A stretch of DNA of 44,163 bases, taken from contig CAIWTN010000120.1 in NCBI GenBank assembly GCA_903915625.1, positions 1 through 44,163 of the forward strand, in the 5' to 3' direction. The notes under the pieces were generated by a model, which did no database searches, was not told where the DNA came from, and saw only the letters and a program-made list of their open reading frames with translations. The translations under genes were made by a program, and so were the position numbers. This DNA is from an uncultured Pseudomonadota bacterium (GTDB taxonomy: Bacteria > Bdellovibrionota_B > Oligoflexia > Oligoflexales > CAIYRB01). This document shows, in pieces, positions 4,288 to 39,159 of this stretch (position 1 is the first letter of the stretch; each line of letters opens with the position of its first letter).

Positions 4288-5166
4288 TTAACCTCCGCTG
4301 AAGTTGTATTCCTTCACTGTCAGCGTAATCGTAACTTCACCGACCAATTCAGCCAAACTATCGGCTGACTTACCTTCAATGAACCCATTGACGCCTTCGA
4401 GAGTGATGATGATCTTTGGAATCATAATCGGCCGCGTATTCCAGCGCCACTCCCATTTTTTAAAAAGCAGACCATATTTTGACGGAACCCCTTGGAAGCC
4501 GTCAGTTTCCATGGTCCAGTGCATGACTTTATCGAAGCCCTTGGTGAGATATTTATTTTGATAAAACCCGTCCACTTCAAGGACCTTGGTGGTAAAGGTG
4601 CCTTCGGCTTTGAGTGGCTGGCCACTCTCCGGTTTGGCCACTGTCACAGTAGAAGGAGTGACACGACTCAGTCCAGCAAACTTGCTCGTATCCTGAACTA
4701 TCGGTCCGACTATGAACGGCCGTGGTGGATCGAAAGTGGCACCGGCAATTTCGGCGATAGACAGAATTTGGCCGTCGCTTGACAACTTATCTAAGCCAAC
4801 GGATGACGCCGCTCCCTTCAGCTGACCATTTAGTAACTTCGCAATATCTAGAGTCAGCGAGGCACATGTGGCTTTAGAATCGCGAAGGCCGAAGGTAAAG
4901 TCACCCATGATATCCATGGTAATTTGCCCTTCGCATGGCTTCGCTCCAGACGCAGTCTCGATATCCAAAAAATAGGTTGCCGTTGCTACCGGCTTTTTGG
5001 AATTAGCGTCCTCTGCTAACTTCCCGTTGGCAGAAGATACTGCACCAGAGAAGGTTCCTTTCTTTTGCAAATTACTGGCAGATTTCACTAAAGCCTCGTC
5101 GGCACTATAACAGCTTACGGCGAGACTCCCGGAAAGCAAAATGATTGTTAATAAGCCATAGTTCAT
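4288..5166 (-). CDS. Lipoprotein, paralogue of the operon's first gene
   Basis: A 292-residue lipoprotein with signal peptide and lipobox LAVS-C (Cys about 19). I do not recognise a named family. It shares a clear pattern with the 6025-7149 protein: a Cys pair spaced about 30-40 residues apart, then a (D/S)I(A/S)KLL stretch, GA(T)FDPPRPF against GVSYEPARPLF, and GFQGVPSKYGLLF against GFEGLDPLKGLIF, then strands rich in Ile. The two genes therefore arose by duplication. The C-terminal half looks all-beta. It overlaps the upstream gene by 4 nt (ATGA). Probably in the outer-membrane inner leaflet or periplasm, acting with the neighbouring barrel; this is inference from the operon. Confidence 0.75.
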   Translation of the reverse strand: MNYGLLTIILLSGSLAVSCYSADEALVKSASNLQKKGTFSGAVSSANGKLAEDANSKKPVATATYFLDIETASGAKPCEGQITMDIMGDFTFGLRDSKATCASLTLDIAKLLNGQLKGAASSVGLDKLSSDGQILSIAEIAGATFDPPRPFIVGPIVQDTSKFAGLSRVTPSTVTVAKPESGQPLKAEGTFTTKVLEVDGFYQNKYLTKGFDKVMHWTMETDGFQGVPSKYGLLFKKWEWRWNTRPIMIPKIIITLEGVNGFIEGKSADSLAELVGEVTITLTVKEYNFSGG

Positions 5167-6014
5167 GATTTATCCCCAACCTTAATGAGCGTATCCACCA
5201 TGGTCTTGAGTCCGGTACCAAATACCTGGTTTATGGCTTTATCAAGCGGCCCAGTTAAGCCGATGTTGTAGATTTTCATATTCACGCCCATATCGAGGTA
5301 AATATCTTTCGCATATGGGATGGCTAAAAAAACAACATCAAAGGACTGCAGGAAAGATTTTTCGTAGGAAGGATACGGCTTCGGTGTCGATATCGTCACA
5401 GCGATGCCGTTACTGAAGACTTTTCCATCGATCAAAATATCGTTTGCTACGTTGATTGCTCCCGAAAGTTCGATATTTAGCTTCACACTAAAAGTGAGCT
5501 CATCAAGGTCGAATTTTGGAGCCTGAGTGATTTTTATGACGGGCTTTACCAGATTTTCTAGCTCTTTAGTGGCACTCTCTGGCAGCTTCAACTCACCTAC
5601 GGCCAACTGGTCTCTCTGTTTCATTAAATCGGAGAGAAGTGGCAAAAGCTGCGGAATTTGCTTGTTCAGCCAAATTTGCGTACGGATTGACTTAGAAAAA
5701 ACATCAGCCTCAGCCTGATCAGCGGCTGTTTCACCACCCGGCAGATCATTGAATGTGAAAGCGCTTATTTTATCAAAATCTGTAGCTGTCAAACCTGCGC
5801 CTGCACAAGATGCAAGCTGCGGCAGCATACTTTTCGTGGTGGGTGCTTTCGCGCGGGCCCCTAGAGACTTGCAGATATCAGTCGCTATTGCACCAACCGA
5901 TTTAGGGGCTTGACTGAAAAGGCTGGACACTTCAGACGCACGCTTCAACCGAGAGCCACAGCTGACTGACAGCAGCATGACTCCGAGCATGAAAATGTGT
6001 TTTGTCCTAAACAT
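5163..6014 (-). CDS. Lipoprotein of unknown function
   Basis: A 283-residue protein with signal peptide and lipobox LSVS-C-G (Cys about 19). The first half of the mature protein appears mostly helical, with an Asp/Gln-rich stretch near residues 95-130. The second half carries alternating strands, for example FDLDELTFSVKLNIEL, and ends in a helix containing LKTMVDTLIKVG. I see no convincing similarity to the two flanking lipoproteins except lipidation and a beta-rich region. It lies between them, 10 bp after the first and overlapping the next by 4 nt, so the three are almost certainly made together. No function can be assigned. Confidence 0.75.
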   Translation of the reverse strand: MFRTKHIFMLGVMLLSVSCGSRLKRASEVSSLFSQAPKSVGAIATDICKSLGARAKAPTTKSMLPQLASCAGAGLTATDFDKISAFTFNDLPGGETAADQAEADVFSKSIRTQIWLNKQIPQLLPLLSDLMKQRDQLAVGELKLPESATKELENLVKPVIKITQAPKFDLDELTFSVKLNIELSGAINVANDILIDGKVFSNGIAVTISTPKPYPSYEKSFLQSFDVVFLAIPYAKDIYLDMGVNMKIYNIGLTGPLDKAINQVFGTGLKTMVDTLIKVGDKS

Positions 6015-6024
6015 AGTCTAACCC

Positions 6025-7149
6025 TCAATTAGTCGCCTGAGGCCCTGCCGCAGCGGCACTAAAAGTCTCACCCCGACCACCATCTTGACTGACCTGGCCG
6101 AGCCCCTCCTGATTAGTCAAACTAATCGTGATGGTCGCGGTTATGTCTTTGCTCAATCCCATCAGTATTTGATTATCGATACCTTTGCTGTTCACAGTAT
6201 TTTTGACAATCGGTGCAATCGTCTTCAGAAGACCACTCAGGGCTTCATCCGGGACCGATGTAATGACCGAGATCAGTTTGTCTGCGCGACCTTTCACTTC
6301 AATTTGTGTGATCGCGATTGGGGCGACACTCAAGCGAAAATTTAATTGGTCGAAGATCAGACCTTTGAGCGGGTCTAAACCCTCAAAACCCGATGCTGTA
6401 GTTGAAAAATACATGGACTTAGGAAAGGTGAAGCTCATTCCTGGAGGCTGATACGGAGTGTCATATTCCTTCATCTCCAGACCGAAAGTACCCTGATATG
6501 CTCTGCCGTCGAATGTTGCCGTAGTTGCAGAAGACGTACTTAGCTGTGCTAAATTTTCTTTTTTGCCCGCTAGCAAAGATGGGAACAAAGGTCGAGCGGG
6601 TTCGTAGCTCACTCCAAGTAGCGAAGTTAGAGCTAAAACATCACCGACTTTCTTGATCGGCAAACCCTCTCCCGTCGGCTTAGCTGCAAAGAATCCCCCA
6701 AGGAGTTTTGAAATGTCGATACTACTTTGAATCGCTGGACAATTGATCGGCTGCGAAGCTCCAATCACTAGAAGTTTACTAATATCGCCAGTTTTTAATG
6801 CCTCTGCAGATGGGTTGACTGCGAGATCGAGGGGACCGTTACAAGCTTCCAAGTGAATCAAATTGGCCAGGCCTAGAAAACCACCCGAACCATCGAGTCT
6901 TACCGTCACTTTGAATGATGCCTTCAGCGCACCGGATAAATCCGGTACAGCCAGCTCTCCTGGCTCGCCAGAATTGTCATCTTTATCGATTTCGGAAGGT
7001 GAATTGAGCGCTCCCCGTGCGGGTAGCGAAGCCCCGCCGAGTTTGCCGTTTTTGACGCCTTCAGGACTTTGACTCGAGCACGACGCCACTAAAGCGGCTA
7101 GAGCCAACCCAAAAATTGCTCGGAATTTGATGTAGAAGTCTTGGAACAT
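6025..7149 (-). CDS. Lipoprotein, first gene of the envelope operon
   Basis: A 374-residue protein with signal peptide and lipobox LVAS-C-S (Cys about 24), then a Ser/Gly/Asp-rich linker up to about residue 65. Its core matches the 4288-5166 lipoprotein in order: a paired Cys region, DISKLLGG, GVSYEPARPLF, GFEGLDPLKGLIF and Ile-rich strands. It has an extra C-terminal segment including GLLKTIAPIVKNTV and a Ser/Gly-rich end. The function is unknown. It heads the operon, about 68 nt downstream of a FliA-like promoter start, and is divergent from the threonine genes. Confidence 0.75.
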   Translation of the reverse strand: MFQDFYIKFRAIFGLALAALVASCSSQSPEGVKNGKLGGASLPARGALNSPSEIDKDDNSGEPGELAVPDLSGALKASFKVTVRLDGSGGFLGLANLIHLEACNGPLDLAVNPSAEALKTGDISKLLVIGASQPINCPAIQSSIDISKLLGGFFAAKPTGEGLPIKKVGDVLALTSLLGVSYEPARPLFPSLLAGKKENLAQLSTSSATTATFDGRAYQGTFGLEMKEYDTPYQPPGMSFTFPKSMYFSTTASGFEGLDPLKGLIFDQLNFRLSVAPIAITQIEVKGRADKLISVITSVPDEALSGLLKTIAPIVKNTVNSKGIDNQILMGLSKDITATITISLTNQEGLGQVSQDGGRGETFSAAAAGPQATN

Positions 7150-7223: not shown

Positions 7224-7251
7224 TTATCGGAACGTAAACATTAAAACTTTA
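7224..7251 (-). promoter_or_regulatory. Sigma-28 (FliA)-type promoter for the lipoprotein/OMP operon
   Basis: On the minus strand: TAAAG (7251-7247, continuing as TAAAGTTT), a 15-bp spacer, then TCCGATAA (7231-7224) followed by G. This matches the FliA consensus except for the first -10 base. The predicted start near 7217 leaves a leader of about 68 nt before the ATG at 7149. Confidence 0.75.
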
Positions 7252-17464: not shown

Positions 17465-17492
17465 TTATCGGCAAGTTCTCCAAAAAACTTTA
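17465..17492 (-). promoter_or_regulatory. Sigma-28 (FliA)-type promoter, near-perfect
   Basis: On the minus strand: TAAAG (17492-17488, continuing as TAAAGTTT), a 15-bp spacer, GCCGATAA (17472-17465). Both elements match the FliA consensus fully, with a spacer one base longer than in E. coli. The start near 17458 gives a leader of about 30 nt before the ATG at 17428. Confidence 0.82.
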
Positions 17493-31770: not shown

Positions 31771-31806
31771 GCCTAAAGACGCACCACAACAAACGTCGCT
31801 TTAGGC
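31771..31806 (-). terminator. Hairpin overlapping the stop of the C1-like cyclase gene
   Basis: GCCTAAAG (31771-31778) pairs with CTTTAGGC (31799-31806), extended by ACG/CGT beyond a bulge. On the minus strand it is followed by TCATTTTG. It could reduce read-through from the upstream cyclase gene into the downstream one. Confidence 0.45.
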
Positions 31807-34125
31807 AGTGAAAACAGCATTTTGAGAGTTATAGGTTTGGTTCACAAACAAGTTAAATAGCAACTCAAGTTGCTTAGTATTACCGCCGAGTATCTTCAGT
31901 CCATGCTCAAATCCGGACTCTGATTTACGACTCCAACGCACTTCTGCGGTAATGGACTCAAGTCTTTTACTATAGAGAAGCTCATTGAGTTCGGGTCGCT
32001 GCATGTCAATCGTGAATTCGAGAACCGATCTTTGCGCAATATATATGTCAGACACTACGCGAAATCCGTGCAATGAAAAATCTAGGACACGAAAGACGCC
32101 ACCCGCTGATTTCAACTCCACCAACGAATTAGTCACTGCAGGAATACGATTGTATCTTGATTGCATACCAAGTTGATTGAAATACAAAGACATAGCCTGC
32201 TTTAATTCACTGGGGCGACTATGAAATGGATTAAACTCAAAAGCTTGCACTAAATCATGCTGATATCTGAGACCGAAATGCACTGGGGAAAACCCCACAT
32301 CTTCCGCTCCATAACGCATTAAACGTTCATAACAGCTCGCACTAATCATCACATGAAATGGCCCACATGTGCGCTCTAAACTGGAGGCAAAATGCACTCC
32401 TTTGCCAACTATCGTGAAGTCGACGCGCATGTGTGTACCAATATTTCCGAGTAACACATTATCTGAGTGTATGCCGATACGCACCGGCAGGCTTAATTTT
32501 CTTCGCGAGGAATTGCGCGAATTGCCGTCCTCGATGGTATCTATTAATATTAGTTCTTGGATGGCTTTGGCAGCAGAGAATGCCGCATGTGCATGATCTT
32601 TACCGCCTACACTCCCCCCTTTATCACTAAAAAAGCAGAGCATGCCATCGCCTAAAGAACGGTCAACCACACCATCAAAACTCTCAATTATTTTTGTTAA
32701 CGACGCGAGCCGACCTGATAGATCAGAAAACAAATCTTCGCGATCATTCTGATCCGCAAGCAACGAGAATGACACAATATCAATAAACATGATTGAAACA
32801 TCAATTTCTCGGGTTTGTGAGACTGCACCCTGAGACAAGTCCGCTAATTGAGAAGCCACCGGACCAGAGCGTTTATTAAACAGGGATTTAGCGATATTTT
32901 TATGGTCATCCTCTAAATCGAGAATCCGCCGTGAGAGTGCGGCCGACATTGCCAGCACCCCCCAGATTAGTGCGCCGTTACTCATATAATGACTGAAGAA
33001 CGACCCCTCAATTAGTCCAAGCCATGAAGAGACGCCGATCAACACACCCGAAATCACGCCATAATAGAAATTATAATAGTAAAAAACACCCCGAATTGGC
33101 AGCTTTCGCGCCCTATAAATCAACACAGAAAAGCAAACTGAATTTAATGTACCAACGATAAAAATGCTGGCAATTGAAGGCGAAGACAAGGGTATGGCAA
33201 TCAAAATCACGATCGTCATCAAAATGAGCGATTTCTCAATCCATTCATTTCGACCAGCTCTTTTATTACGAGCTAGGTAGTAGTGATCGAAAATCAAAAG
33301 AAATAATTGAGTCAATAAAACTGATGAACACAAGAAATTTGTGTGCAAAGTTAAATTTTCATGGATGCCAGGCCAGAAAATTCCCAACTGTCCGGAAAAC
33401 AAAAAAGCAAAGGCTGCAGACATCAATTGCGCCAGGAGAAAAAAAGCATACATCGGCTGTCTTAGGGTCAAAAAAAGACCAAAATTATACAGAACAAATC
33501 CTAGAACTATGCCGATCATGACACCGTGAAGACTGCGCCTAAACAAACTAAGCATGCGGTAGTCTGAATCGATCCCAATAAAGATGGGAGCAATGATTTC
33601 TACGTCTGCCTCGATACGCAGGTACAGCATCAAATCTTTACTTGGATCTGCGGCGAAACTCAGCCGGGGATAACCATCGCCCGCAACTTGCGGTCGCTGC
33701 ATCCCCTGTGACACGGAAGACAAGAGGCGGGGGCCGTCAGTTAAATAGAAATCAGCCTTCCGCATCATGTGGTACCCGACCTCGGCTACGAGCGACTCCG
33801 TACTCGAGCTCTTGGGCACTTGAATCCGGTACCACATCACGCCAGTCGAAGTGCGCAGTCCATGATGGTGACCGCCACTAACTGCGCGCCAGTGATCTGC
33901 TGATTGCTGCATGATGTCGGTCAAAGACTGAAATTTCCCAGTGTTCGATCCATCATAAACAAAAGTCGTGTATTTGGTCGCATCATAGCCGGCAGGATCA
34001 GGGAGCAGCAGTGCAAGTAAAAGCATAATCAGCGGCGGTACCTGCGCTCGCAGATGGTAGAGCCACGACGGATAAGCTTTGTTTAGGTTCTGTTTCAAAA
34101 GACGCGGGTCCCCCCAAAGACGCAT
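31801..34125 (-). CDS. 7TM-DISM class III nucleotide cyclase homologue with PilZ-like tail, C1-like half
   Basis: A 774-residue paralogue of the next gene downstream, with the same layout: anchor helix (30-42), extracellular sensor (50-190), seven helices (200-400), cyclase (440-635), PilZ-like domain (655-770). Both metal Asp residues are present: Asp449 (FIDIVSF) and Asp493 (RSLGDG). The transition-state pair is lost: the family VNxAxR reads VHFASS (His578, Ser582). This is the residue pattern of mammalian C1. The tail has DFSLHGF (the DxSxxG motif) but only RYNRIP where PilZ usually has RxxxR. Start ATG 34125. No FliA-like site precedes it; the 131-bp gap upstream is AT-rich. Confidence 0.88.
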   Translation of the reverse strand: MRLWGDPRLLKQNLNKAYPSWLYHLRAQVPPLIMLLLALLLPDPAGYDATKYTTFVYDGSNTGKFQSLTDIMQQSADHWRAVSGGHHHGLRTSTGVMWYRIQVPKSSSTESLVAEVGYHMMRKADFYLTDGPRLLSSVSQGMQRPQVAGDGYPRLSFAADPSKDLMLYLRIEADVEIIAPIFIGIDSDYRMLSLFRRSLHGVMIGIVLGFVLYNFGLFLTLRQPMYAFFLLAQLMSAAFAFLFSGQLGIFWPGIHENLTLHTNFLCSSVLLTQLFLLIFDHYYLARNKRAGRNEWIEKSLILMTIVILIAIPLSSPSIASIFIVGTLNSVCFSVLIYRARKLPIRGVFYYYNFYYGVISGVLIGVSSWLGLIEGSFFSHYMSNGALIWGVLAMSAALSRRILDLEDDHKNIAKSLFNKRSGPVASQLADLSQGAVSQTREIDVSIMFIDIVSFSLLADQNDREDLFSDLSGRLASLTKIIESFDGVVDRSLGDGMLCFFSDKGGSVGGKDHAHAAFSAAKAIQELILIDTIEDGNSRNSSRRKLSLPVRIGIHSDNVLLGNIGTHMRVDFTIVGKGVHFASSLERTCGPFHVMISASCYERLMRYGAEDVGFSPVHFGLRYQHDLVQAFEFNPFHSRPSELKQAMSLYFNQLGMQSRYNRIPAVTNSLVELKSAGGVFRVLDFSLHGFRVVSDIYIAQRSVLEFTIDMQRPELNELLYSKRLESITAEVRWSRKSESGFEHGLKILGGNTKQLELLFNLFVNQTYNSQNAVFTA

Positions 34126-36848: not shown

Positions 36849-37847
36849 TCAGACGTAGGTCTCATCTTTACTCATGATCTCGATTTTGCCTGAAGCTACC
36901 AGCGCCTGAGCCATTTCAGCAATTTGCTGCTGGGAAGCCTGCACATCTTGCAGGCGGGTCTTGGGCATCGCTGCAACATCATCCTTCAAAAGCTTTGCCG
37001 CTCGTTCTGACAGATTTTTATAAATGTGTGCAGTGACTACCTCGTCCGCTGATTTTAGCGCAAGACGCAGTGCAGCCGCCGGTACCTGAGCCAGTAGCGC
37101 CTGCATGCCACGATCACCGATTCGCACTAGATCGGCGAAGGTAAATAGACGACGGCGCACCTTCTCCGCTAATTCAGGATCACGCTGTTCCAGGCTTAGC
37201 AAAAGGCGCTCACCCTCAGACTGACCCAGTGAGTTGATCAACTGTACCAGCTTGTCTACCCCACCCAAATTTTGACTTTGCCGCACAACACCGCTCCCCT
37301 GGTCCTGCTTCAGGGTAGTGACGATGAGCTCCAAACTTTCCGCATCGACCGAGCCTAGACGGGCCAGTCGCTGAAGAATGTCCACCTTTAGCGCAGGTGG
37401 GAGGAGCTGCACAGTTTTACTAGCCAGGGCTGGCGCGCAATGTGCGACGATTAAAGTGACCGTCTGCGGTACTTCGTTCTGTAATAATGCGGCGAGAGCT
37501 TCAGGCTCCTTGGAGGCAAGTAGATGACTCAGCTCACTCGACAGGGCATCAGCATCGCTTCCTAAACGTTCCGCCTCTTGTTTATGCCCTGCCAAGCGCA
37601 GTAGTCGCTGCGCAGTGTCGTGGTCTCCGTTGATCCCTTGCGTTGGGTTCAACAGGGAGTCTTGAAATTCACTAGCGACCTCGCTCGCGACCTTAGCGTC
37701 AACGCGACCTAAACGACTCATTGCGGCAGCAATACGAGTGACTTCAAGCGGTCGCATCTGACCGACAATTTCACTGGCGAGTTCTTCACCGAGTGTCAGC
37801 AGTACTACCGCTGCTTTTTCTGCACTGGTCAGCTTTGGAGCGCCCAT
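36849..37847 (-). CDS. fliG: Flagellar motor switch protein FliG
   Basis: Rotor component that couples the MotA/MotB stator to rotation and binds FliF and FliM. The 332-residue length is normal. The N-domain begins LTSAEKAAVVLLTLGEE, and the middle domain carries the EHP-like and armadillo helices. The C-domain has the torque helix region FADLVRIGDRGMQALL and the characteristic NLSERAAKLLKDDVAAMP, then VQASQQQIAEMAQALVASGKI. No other flagellar gene is in the window, so it is an orphan or extra copy. AAGGAGG lies close before the ATG. A possible weak FliA-like site precedes it. Confidence 0.94.
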   Translation of the reverse strand: MGAPKLTSAEKAAVVLLTLGEELASEIVGQMRPLEVTRIAAAMSRLGRVDAKVASEVASEFQDSLLNPTQGINGDHDTAQRLLRLAGHKQEAERLGSDADALSSELSHLLASKEPEALAALLQNEVPQTVTLIVAHCAPALASKTVQLLPPALKVDILQRLARLGSVDAESLELIVTTLKQDQGSGVVRQSQNLGGVDKLVQLINSLGQSEGERLLLSLEQRDPELAEKVRRRLFTFADLVRIGDRGMQALLAQVPAAALRLALKSADEVVTAHIYKNLSERAAKLLKDDVAAMPKTRLQDVQASQQQIAEMAQALVASGKIEIMSKDETYV

Positions 37848-37866: not shown

Positions 37867-37894
37867 TCCTCGGCAAAAACAGGATAAACCTTTA
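37867..37894 (-). promoter_or_regulatory. Possible degenerate sigma-28 promoter for fliG
   Basis: On the minus strand: TAAAG (37894-37890), a 15-bp spacer, GCCGAGGA (37874-37867). Six of eight -10 bases fit. The start would fall at the ribosome site, near 37860, so it may be coincidental. Confidence 0.28.
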
Positions 37895-38061: not shown

Positions 38062-38089
38062 TCAAGCTCCGACCCCAAAATACCGATAA
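38062..38089 (+). promoter_or_regulatory. Sigma-28 (FliA)-type promoter for the polyesterase-like gene
   Basis: TCAAG (38062-38066), a 15-bp spacer, ACCGATAA (38082-38089), followed by GTGGGT exactly as at the cyclase promoter. The start near 38096 gives a leader of about 40-50 nt. The rest of the 37848-38136 gap shows no supported gene. Confidence 0.65.
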
Positions 38090-38136: not shown

Positions 38137-39159
38137 TTGCGCACCATGAAGTTTACCTGGCTGTTACTTTTGACGGGACTGTATTCCTGCGGGCAGTCAG
38201 AGTCCGTTAAAAACACGCCTATTAAGCCGCGCAACGGCGCAACCTCAACAAGTAAAAAAATAGACAGCGGCGATGTCGAAGCCGATGACAGCATAGACAA
38301 GAAGAGCAAAAAAAAGAGCCTCGCCCCCTCGACAGCAGCCTCTGATACAGCGTCAGAAACTGCCACTCCCGCCCAGCCCACACTCGCCTTCATGTCTAAT
38401 CCTGAGCAAACGGGTCCTATGGCTGTAAAATCTTATACGCAAGGGCTCAGCGACCCATCCTACAGCTCCTCGATCATTTTTTATCCCGATGATGGTTCTA
38501 CCCTTAAATTTCCTGCAACGACTCTAAGTGGTGGCTACAGTAATACTAAGGAACAGATGATTTGGCTCGCGCAGCATCTGGCCAGTCACGGATTTATCGT
38601 TAGTATCTTTACTCCCACCAATACGAATTCGACTGACCCACGAATTTGGGCGACTGGCCACAGCGGATCGATAAATAAACTAAAAACTGAAAGCCTGCGC
38701 CAGGGCAGCCCCATCCAAGGTAGAGTCGATGAAACGCGCCTCGGAATTATGGGATTCTCTATGGGAGGTGCAGGAACTATAGTTGCAGTAAATTCATTAG
38801 GAACAGCAGTGCGCGCTGCTGTCCCGATTTGCGCTTATCGGCCTGGCGTTGTGAGTGCGGATGTAGCTAGCCTATTCGTGACTGGCACTGCAGATGCAGT
38901 TGCATCTCCTGCTGCGATTCAACAATCATTTGCGCAGTCTCAAGTGAGAGCACCGCTAGGCCTTGTAAACTTTGATGGACTCGGACATCAAAATATTACA
39001 AACCCAAGCTCGTTTCGTCGCCAACTTTCACGTTATGTAACTGCATGGTACCAAGTGTATCTTGCCGGCAACAAAGTTTACGAAACCTATATCGACGGTG
39101 AAAAGCTGAAGGAAGATCGAGCCGGCGGTGGCATTGCCGATTTTCAGTTGAAGAAATAA
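38137..39159 (+). CDS. Lipoprotein alpha/beta hydrolase, cutinase/PETase-like
   Basis: Numbering is from TTG 38137 (GAGG 10 nt upstream); ATG 38146 is the alternative and gives the same signal peptide. Lipobox LYS-C-G (Cys about 18), then a charged, Ser/Thr-rich linker to about residue 85. The hydrolase domain (90-325) follows the bacterial cutinase/PET-hydrolase pattern. It has GPMAVKSYT, an oxyanion-hole Tyr in GGYSN (Tyr134), LASHGFIV and then a TNTN loop. The nucleophile is in GFSMGG (Ser208), the acid in TGTADAVASP (Asp253) and the histidine in GLGHQN (His284). Usual cutinases have His or Trp before the nucleophile; here it is Phe. It probably cleaves an ester at the cell surface, perhaps a polyester or lipid; the substrate is unproven. 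Confidence 0.8.
   Translation: MRTMKFTWLLLLTGLYSCGQSESVKNTPIKPRNGATSTSKKIDSGDVEADDSIDKKSKKKSLAPSTAASDTASETATPAQPTLAFMSNPEQTGPMAVKSYTQGLSDPSYSSSIIFYPDDGSTLKFPATTLSGGYSNTKEQMIWLAQHLASHGFIVSIFTPTNTNSTDPRIWATGHSGSINKLKTESLRQGSPIQGRVDETRLGIMGFSMGGAGTIVAVNSLGTAVRAAVPICAYRPGVVSADVASLFVTGTADAVASPAAIQQSFAQSQVRAPLGLVNFDGLGHQNITNPSSFRRQLSRYVTAWYQVYLAGNKVYETYIDGEKLKEDRAGGGIADFQLKK

Follow-up and report, generated by a model that had tools for sequence, protein, structure and literature searches.

What kind of hydrolase is encoded at the end of a lipoprotein signal peptide in this bacterium, and why should it lie behind a promoter of the flagellar type? A preliminary description of the window (the whole stretch of DNA analyzed, 44,163 nucleotides) had read the gene as a PETase/cutinase-like surface lipoprotein, with a FliA-like promoter that would tie ester cleavage to motility. 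The gene and the N-terminal features of its product are as follows.

38137..39159, + strand: lipoprotein PET-hydrolase-like gene, 340 aa, TTG start, alternative ATG at 38146, stop codon ending at 39159
38137..38190, + strand: lipoprotein signal peptide and lipobox, predicted lipidated Cys18 (codon 38188-38190), Gly and not Asp at +2
38191..38385, + strand: polar linker, about 65 residues, 88% S/T/K/A/D/P/E/G/Q/N

A GAGG-type ribosome site lies just 5' of the TTG at 38137. Since the three closest homologues have a TTG in the same position and the gene of the congener G005 lacks an ATG at the position equivalent to 38146, the TTG rather than the ATG is probably the true start. The short signal peptide ends in LTGLYS-C18, and a signal peptide, a lipobox ending in Cys (KFTWLLLLTGLYS-C) and polar residues following it were all recognized by pattern. 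The linker is rich in S/T/K/A/D, and the hydrolase domain starts at approximately residue 80. A lipobox is present in all complete homologues from the same order and in the Desulfatitalea (Desulfobacterota) proteins; copy 1 of Pseudomonas mangrovi carries an ordinary signal peptide. The lipid anchor with a polar linker that had been proposed for this protein is thus borne out. Besides Cys18, only one Cys, a free one, is left in the mature protein, and the sequence thus predicts that no disulfide can form.

The hydrolase domain and its active site are laid out as follows.

38374..39156, + strand: alpha/beta-hydrolase domain PF12740 (PETase), from Pfam and AlphaFold2, best fold match GlacPETase 8x6v
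38533..38556, + strand: GYSNTKEQ loop, with oxyanion-hole Tyr134 and the branch signature [FY][ST]N.KE
38752..38769, + strand: nucleophile elbow GFSMGG, with the invariant Ser208 (38758-38760)
38836..38838, + strand: Tyr234, at the position of the IsPETase clamp Trp185
38893..38895, + strand: catalytic Asp253, invariant column, aligned with IsPETase Asp206
38986..38988, + strand: catalytic His284, invariant column, aligned with IsPETase His237

PF12740 (PET hydrolase-like) matched with 104.4 bits against a cut-off of 28, over positions 12-243 of the 263-position profile, and was the sole Pfam family above its cut-off; chlorophyllase, S9 peptidase, PAF acetylhydrolase and AXE1 all fell below theirs. 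The nearest NCBIfam model, BHET hydrolase, scored 84.8 bits and is far below its equivalog cut-off of 520. By sequence, the nearest solved structure was GlacPETase (PDB 8x6v, E 8e-48; Qi et al. 2024, Appl Environ Microbiol), followed by LCC (3e-22). An AlphaFold2 model of the domain, built on an alignment of 13 homologues, had a pLDDT of 93.5 and a pTM of 0.92, with pLDDT <50 in its first 6 residues only. Foldseek again placed GlacPETase 8x6v first (TM 0.92), then PETases and cutinases (TM 0.77-0.90), and the top 50 matches were PETase-like folds.

All of the motifs listed in the preliminary description were recovered (GGYSN, LASHGFIV, TPTNTN, GFSMGG, GTAD, and GLGH), four of which supply oxyanion Tyr134, Ser208, Asp253, and His284 (GGYSN, GFSMGG, GTAD, and GLGH, respectively). 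The Ser208-Asp253-His284 triad is invariant in the 13 homologues and aligns with Ser160, Asp206, and His237 of IsPETase, while Tyr134 and Met209 correspond to IsPETase Tyr87 and Met161. The residue before the nucleophile is His in LCC and Trp in IsPETase, and here it is Phe207. This Phe had been singled out as unusual; its presence was confirmed but it is no oddity, as GlacPETase and 12 of the 13 homologues likewise have Phe, which is the rule in this branch.

Could the protein instead be a dienelactone hydrolase, or an alpha/beta hydrolase outside the cutinase group? The superfamily fold is all that such an enzyme would have in common with ours. Pfam gave no dienelactone hydrolase match at E 0.1, the nucleophile is Ser and not Cys, PF12740 was found in all 13 homologues, and the closest folds are the PETase-like ones given above. 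This reading, which had been named as one that would overturn the PET-hydrolase-like assignment, is refuted at the family level and we give it a negligible probability.

The phylogeny with characterized PET hydrolases that had been suggested as a check groups the enzyme with GlacPETase. In this tree, which has few references and some long branches, it falls in a clade with GlacPETase, Pseudomonas mangrovi, and Desulfobacterota proteins (support 96/95), apart from types I/II and III. The loop following the oxyanion Tyr is SNTKEQ; GlacPETase and the 13 homologues all keep its K and E, which LCC, IsPETase, PmC, and HaloPETase1 lack. With the clade, the GFSMGG elbow, and the [FY][ST]N.KE loop all shared, the enzyme is a lipid-anchored new member of the GlacPETase branch.

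PETase types I, IIa, IIb, and III have been defined by Turak et al. (PMC12442448). The single Cys, the Tyr at the Trp position, and the Phe before Ser set the enzyme apart from type I (LCC), which has a conserved disulfide, Trp opposite the aromatic clamp, and His before Ser; types IIa and IIb (IsPETase) have two conserved disulfides and an extended loop, and no Cys pairs occur here; GFSMGG instead of GHSQG and Tyr instead of Thr distinguish it from type III (HaloPETase1). Judging by its active-site residues and the lack of a disulfide, the enzyme fits none of these types.

Family membership is not to be equated with activity on PET. The label “PETase/cutinase” holds for the family, but with Tyr in place of the clamp Trp it cannot be read as PET activity. 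One possibility is that the enzyme is a general scavenger of lipids or esters (lipase-like, or feruloyl- or acetyl-esterase-like) with no polyester role, so that “PETase” is a matter of family naming. This is consistent with the Tyr at the clamp position, as in type III enzymes without a clamp, and with the breadth of PF12740, which includes lipases such as 1jfr (TM 0.84 to the model). No tannase- or MHETase-like gene that would point to PET catabolism was found in the genome, although the same search gave none in control genomes either. The model, however, keeps the PETase fold, and GlacPETase, the closest characterized relative, is described as PET-active in two papers (PMC13234336, PMC12976661). 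We regard the scavenger role as a serious contender, at slightly under even chances.

The second question concerns expression. Upstream of the gene lies the following site.

38062..38089, + strand: sigma28 (FliA)-type promoter, TCAAGCTC-N12-ACCGATAA, 12/16 matches to TAAAGTTT-N12-GCCGATAA

Taken alone, a match of this quality could be due to chance, with the gene expressed from another promoter: its P is 0.012 within its own 150-nt upstream region, and with 24 matches of at least 12/16 in the 44 kb window such sites are not rare. Against this, the same site recurs at the same distance and in the same orientation in three other species, in two of which the gene has different neighbors and the match is 14-15/16. 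The homologous sites score 13/16 (N12, P 0.002) in G005, 15/16 (N11, P 0.00025) in G003, and 14/16 (N11, P 0.00025) in G004; the window species therefore has the poorest match among them. The -35 box lies 74-81 nt before the start codon in each of the four genus members carrying the gene, so that TAAAGTTT-N11/12-GCCGATAA occurs at a conserved place in four species. Because of this conservation, including the two species with different neighbors, we accept the 12/16 promoter as real and consider a chance match improbable. Scans for sigma70 promoters and terminators near the gene gave about chance level. Homologues in other genera (G022 and G027) showed no convincing FliA-type site, which suggests that regulation by this site is a genus-level trait. 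A further FliA-type site (13/16, 37867-37894, - strand) precedes fliG (36849-37847, - strand), and a similar one is found in G005 (L021, near 15116).

Across the genome, TAAAGTTT-N12-GCCGATAA was found at 144 sites with ≤3 mismatches (30 for a reversed control) and at 47 sites with ≤2 mismatches (2 for the control). When the ORFs behind the best 30 sites were read, they proved to be mostly lipoproteins. These were called by one fixed pattern classifier, not SignalP; it had been loosened before the counts, a first version having proved so strict that it overlooked known cases, the PETase-like gene among them, and it remains on the strict side, as a lipobox is visible by eye in several of the proteins that it rejected. 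On this basis, 22 of 29 distinct ORFs downstream of sites encode lipoproteins, compared to 21 of 260 background ORFs (8%; taken from 331 kb of this genome; p 8e-19). Similar enrichment was obtained in G003, a second species of the genus (14/22, p 9e-11), and in G010, from another family (9/15, p 5e-7). Viewed from the opposite side in the sampled stretches, a site of at least 14/16 precedes 3 of 21 lipoprotein genes and 1 of 239 other ORFs (p 0.002; none for the reversed motif), and a lipobox can be seen by eye in the lone exception (L084, 7443-8435). In other members of the genus, site counts are 47-69 against 1-5 control matches, while in a second order of the class the site count was at background. 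Two further members of the regulon occur in the window itself.

17465..17492, - strand: sigma28-type promoter, perfect 16/16 match to TAAAGTTT-N12-GCCGATAA
16505..17428, - strand: lipoprotein gene behind the 16/16 promoter
7224..7251, - strand: sigma28-type promoter, 15/16
6025..7149, - strand: lipoprotein gene behind the 15/16 promoter

The PETase-like enzyme most likely belongs to this sigma28-type lipoprotein regulon. The surprise lies in the regulon; the enzyme itself, though new, is of a known kind. The lipoprotein genes behind such promoters (G000, L039-L068; G003, L130-L149; G010, L150-L164) are mostly of unknown function, and most members have no Pfam domain, the exceptions being fasciclin, trypsin, CAP, kelch, and cytochrome-like domains.

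Which sigma factor would read these promoters? A canonical fliA lies in the flagellar cluster, after flhF- and flhG-like genes and before a CheY-like gene (neighbors named by eye). A second FliA/WhiG-family sigma factor (258 bits; L070/L087, G000:C230:5705-6379) is encoded on a 6.4-kb contig, adjoins a WYL-type regulator by eye, and is absent from the other five members of the genus. The regulon is unlikely to need this paralogue as a sigma factor of its own: G001-G005 manage with one FliA-type factor each above cut-off, yet have as many sites. For the same reason, canonical FliA is the likely reader of the lipoprotein promoters. Eight flagellin-domain genes occur in the genome (L183-L190). 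The upstream region was read for seven of them, of which one has a 13/16 site and none a better one, so the promoter class is not simply a flagellin promoter. The preliminary description was therefore right about the promoter, conserved at -74 to -81 in four species, but the tie to motility is looser than it proposed: this promoter type marks lipoproteins and most flagellin genes lack the motif. We tentatively propose, at not quite an even chance, that the flagellar sigma28 factor or its promoter class has become the dedicated controller of a large surface lipoproteome in this genus and at least one further family of its order, mostly uncoupled from flagellins and with a membrane-tethered polyesterase among its outputs. 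If confirmed, a promoter class devoted mainly to lipoproteins would explain the joint deployment of dozens of anchored proteins, and a simple promoter rule could then be used to find surface proteins whose function is unknown.

The PETase-like gene was found in four of the six genomes of the genus and in three genomes from elsewhere in the order (two copies in one, no more than a fragment in another), and not in the remaining genomes searched. One congener is a LacPavin sediment MAG. The fragment (G033, L027 5127-5591, 154 aa) lacks the N-terminal half, has no upstream continuation in other frames, and is probably a decayed gene. Elsewhere, Desulfatitalea alkaliphila (L013) has tandem PETase-like lipoprotein genes (4381-5340 and 5809-6657), and Pseudomonas mangrovi has two copies on two contigs. 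No relative was found in viral contigs, and PADLOC gave no match that would suggest a defense role. Gene neighbors are kept only in G005; in G003 and G004 the gene adjoins MerR and other genes, which rules out a function read from the neighborhood (fliG, ABC transporter). In three genomes, DUF1552 (HXXSHH) genes lie a few kb from the PETase-like gene (L022 4135-7091, L023 343-3300, L027 2414-3727), beside a DUF1587/1592/1588/1585 protein in L022 and with a similar protein in L023. The window also encodes (31801-34125, - strand) a protein that joins a 7TMR-DISM sensor to adenylate/guanylate cyclase and PilZ domains, two cyclic-nucleotide signaling parts that are not usually combined.

Another possibility is that the enzyme serves predation or surface attack, cleaving the lipids or esters of other cells and being made alongside further lipoproteins used in attack. 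The attack phase of Bdellovibrio is under the global control of FliA, which governs two thirds of attack-phase promoters through TTAAG-N16-CCGATA, the same spacing, and whose targets include surface proteins and proteases beside flagella (PMC3627812); the regulon described here contains a trypsin-like protease, fasciclin, and CAP lipoproteins. However, most regulon members have no known domain, and the patchy presence of the gene within the genus would be odd for a core predation enzyme. We consider this role rather unlikely.

From the computed family, triad, fold, lipobox, promoter conservation, and lipoprotein enrichment we infer, with reasonable confidence, that the protein is a serine esterase from the GlacPETase branch, held by a lipid anchor and expressed from a sigma28-type promoter together with a co-regulated lipoprotein coat. 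Transcription would start from the FliA-type promoter, presumably read by FliA, as for several dozen lipoprotein genes sharing it in the genus. The protein would be exported by Sec and lipidated on Cys18, and sorting to the outer membrane is most likely given the Gly at +2; it would presumably be exposed at the cell surface. The linker, being long and polar, would keep the catalytic domain at a distance from the membrane. Carboxylic esters would be cleaved by Ser208-Asp253-His284, with the backbone amides of Tyr134 and Met209 forming the oxyanion hole, in an open groove that has Tyr134 and Tyr234 on its sides. Candidate substrates are natural polyesters, cutin for example, and the lipids of other organisms.

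Compared to known enzymes, the closest likeness is to GlacPETase, which shares GFSMGG and the SNTKEQ loop and is the best match in sequence and fold. The two differ in that they are 36% identical, that the clamp position is Phe in GlacPETase and Tyr here, and that the domain has two Cys in GlacPETase and one here; unlike our enzyme, neither the GlacPETase chain nor its complete Pseudomonas mangrovi relative has a lipobox in the available sequences. Our enzyme shows that GlacPETase does not stand alone, and a lipid-tethered sub-branch is added to a family watched for plastic degradation. LCC and IsPETase (types I and II) share the fold (TM 0.83-0.87), the triad, and the oxyanion Tyr and Met, but are 23-29% identical; their clamp Trp is Tyr here, their His/Trp before Ser is Phe, and the disulfide and the TARQSS/TADASS loop are absent. 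The type III enzymes HaloPETase1 and PmC share the family and the Tyr at the Trp185 position, while their GHSQG, the Thr replacing the oxyanion Tyr, and their two disulfides are all absent here (PMC12442448).

For the regulon, a lipoprotein-dominated set of targets is not described in PMC3627812, where the word “lipoprotein” does not occur, or in the other open-access literature searched. Like that of Bdellovibrio FliA, the regulon is large, extends beyond flagella, and includes surface proteins and proteases, and N16 in the Bdellovibrio notation is the 12-nt spacer in ours. In contrast, the targets here, as predicted from sequence, are overwhelmingly lipoproteins and the flagellin genes mostly lack the motif. 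If confirmed, the lipoprotein regulon would extend the Bdellovibrio FliA program to another lineage.
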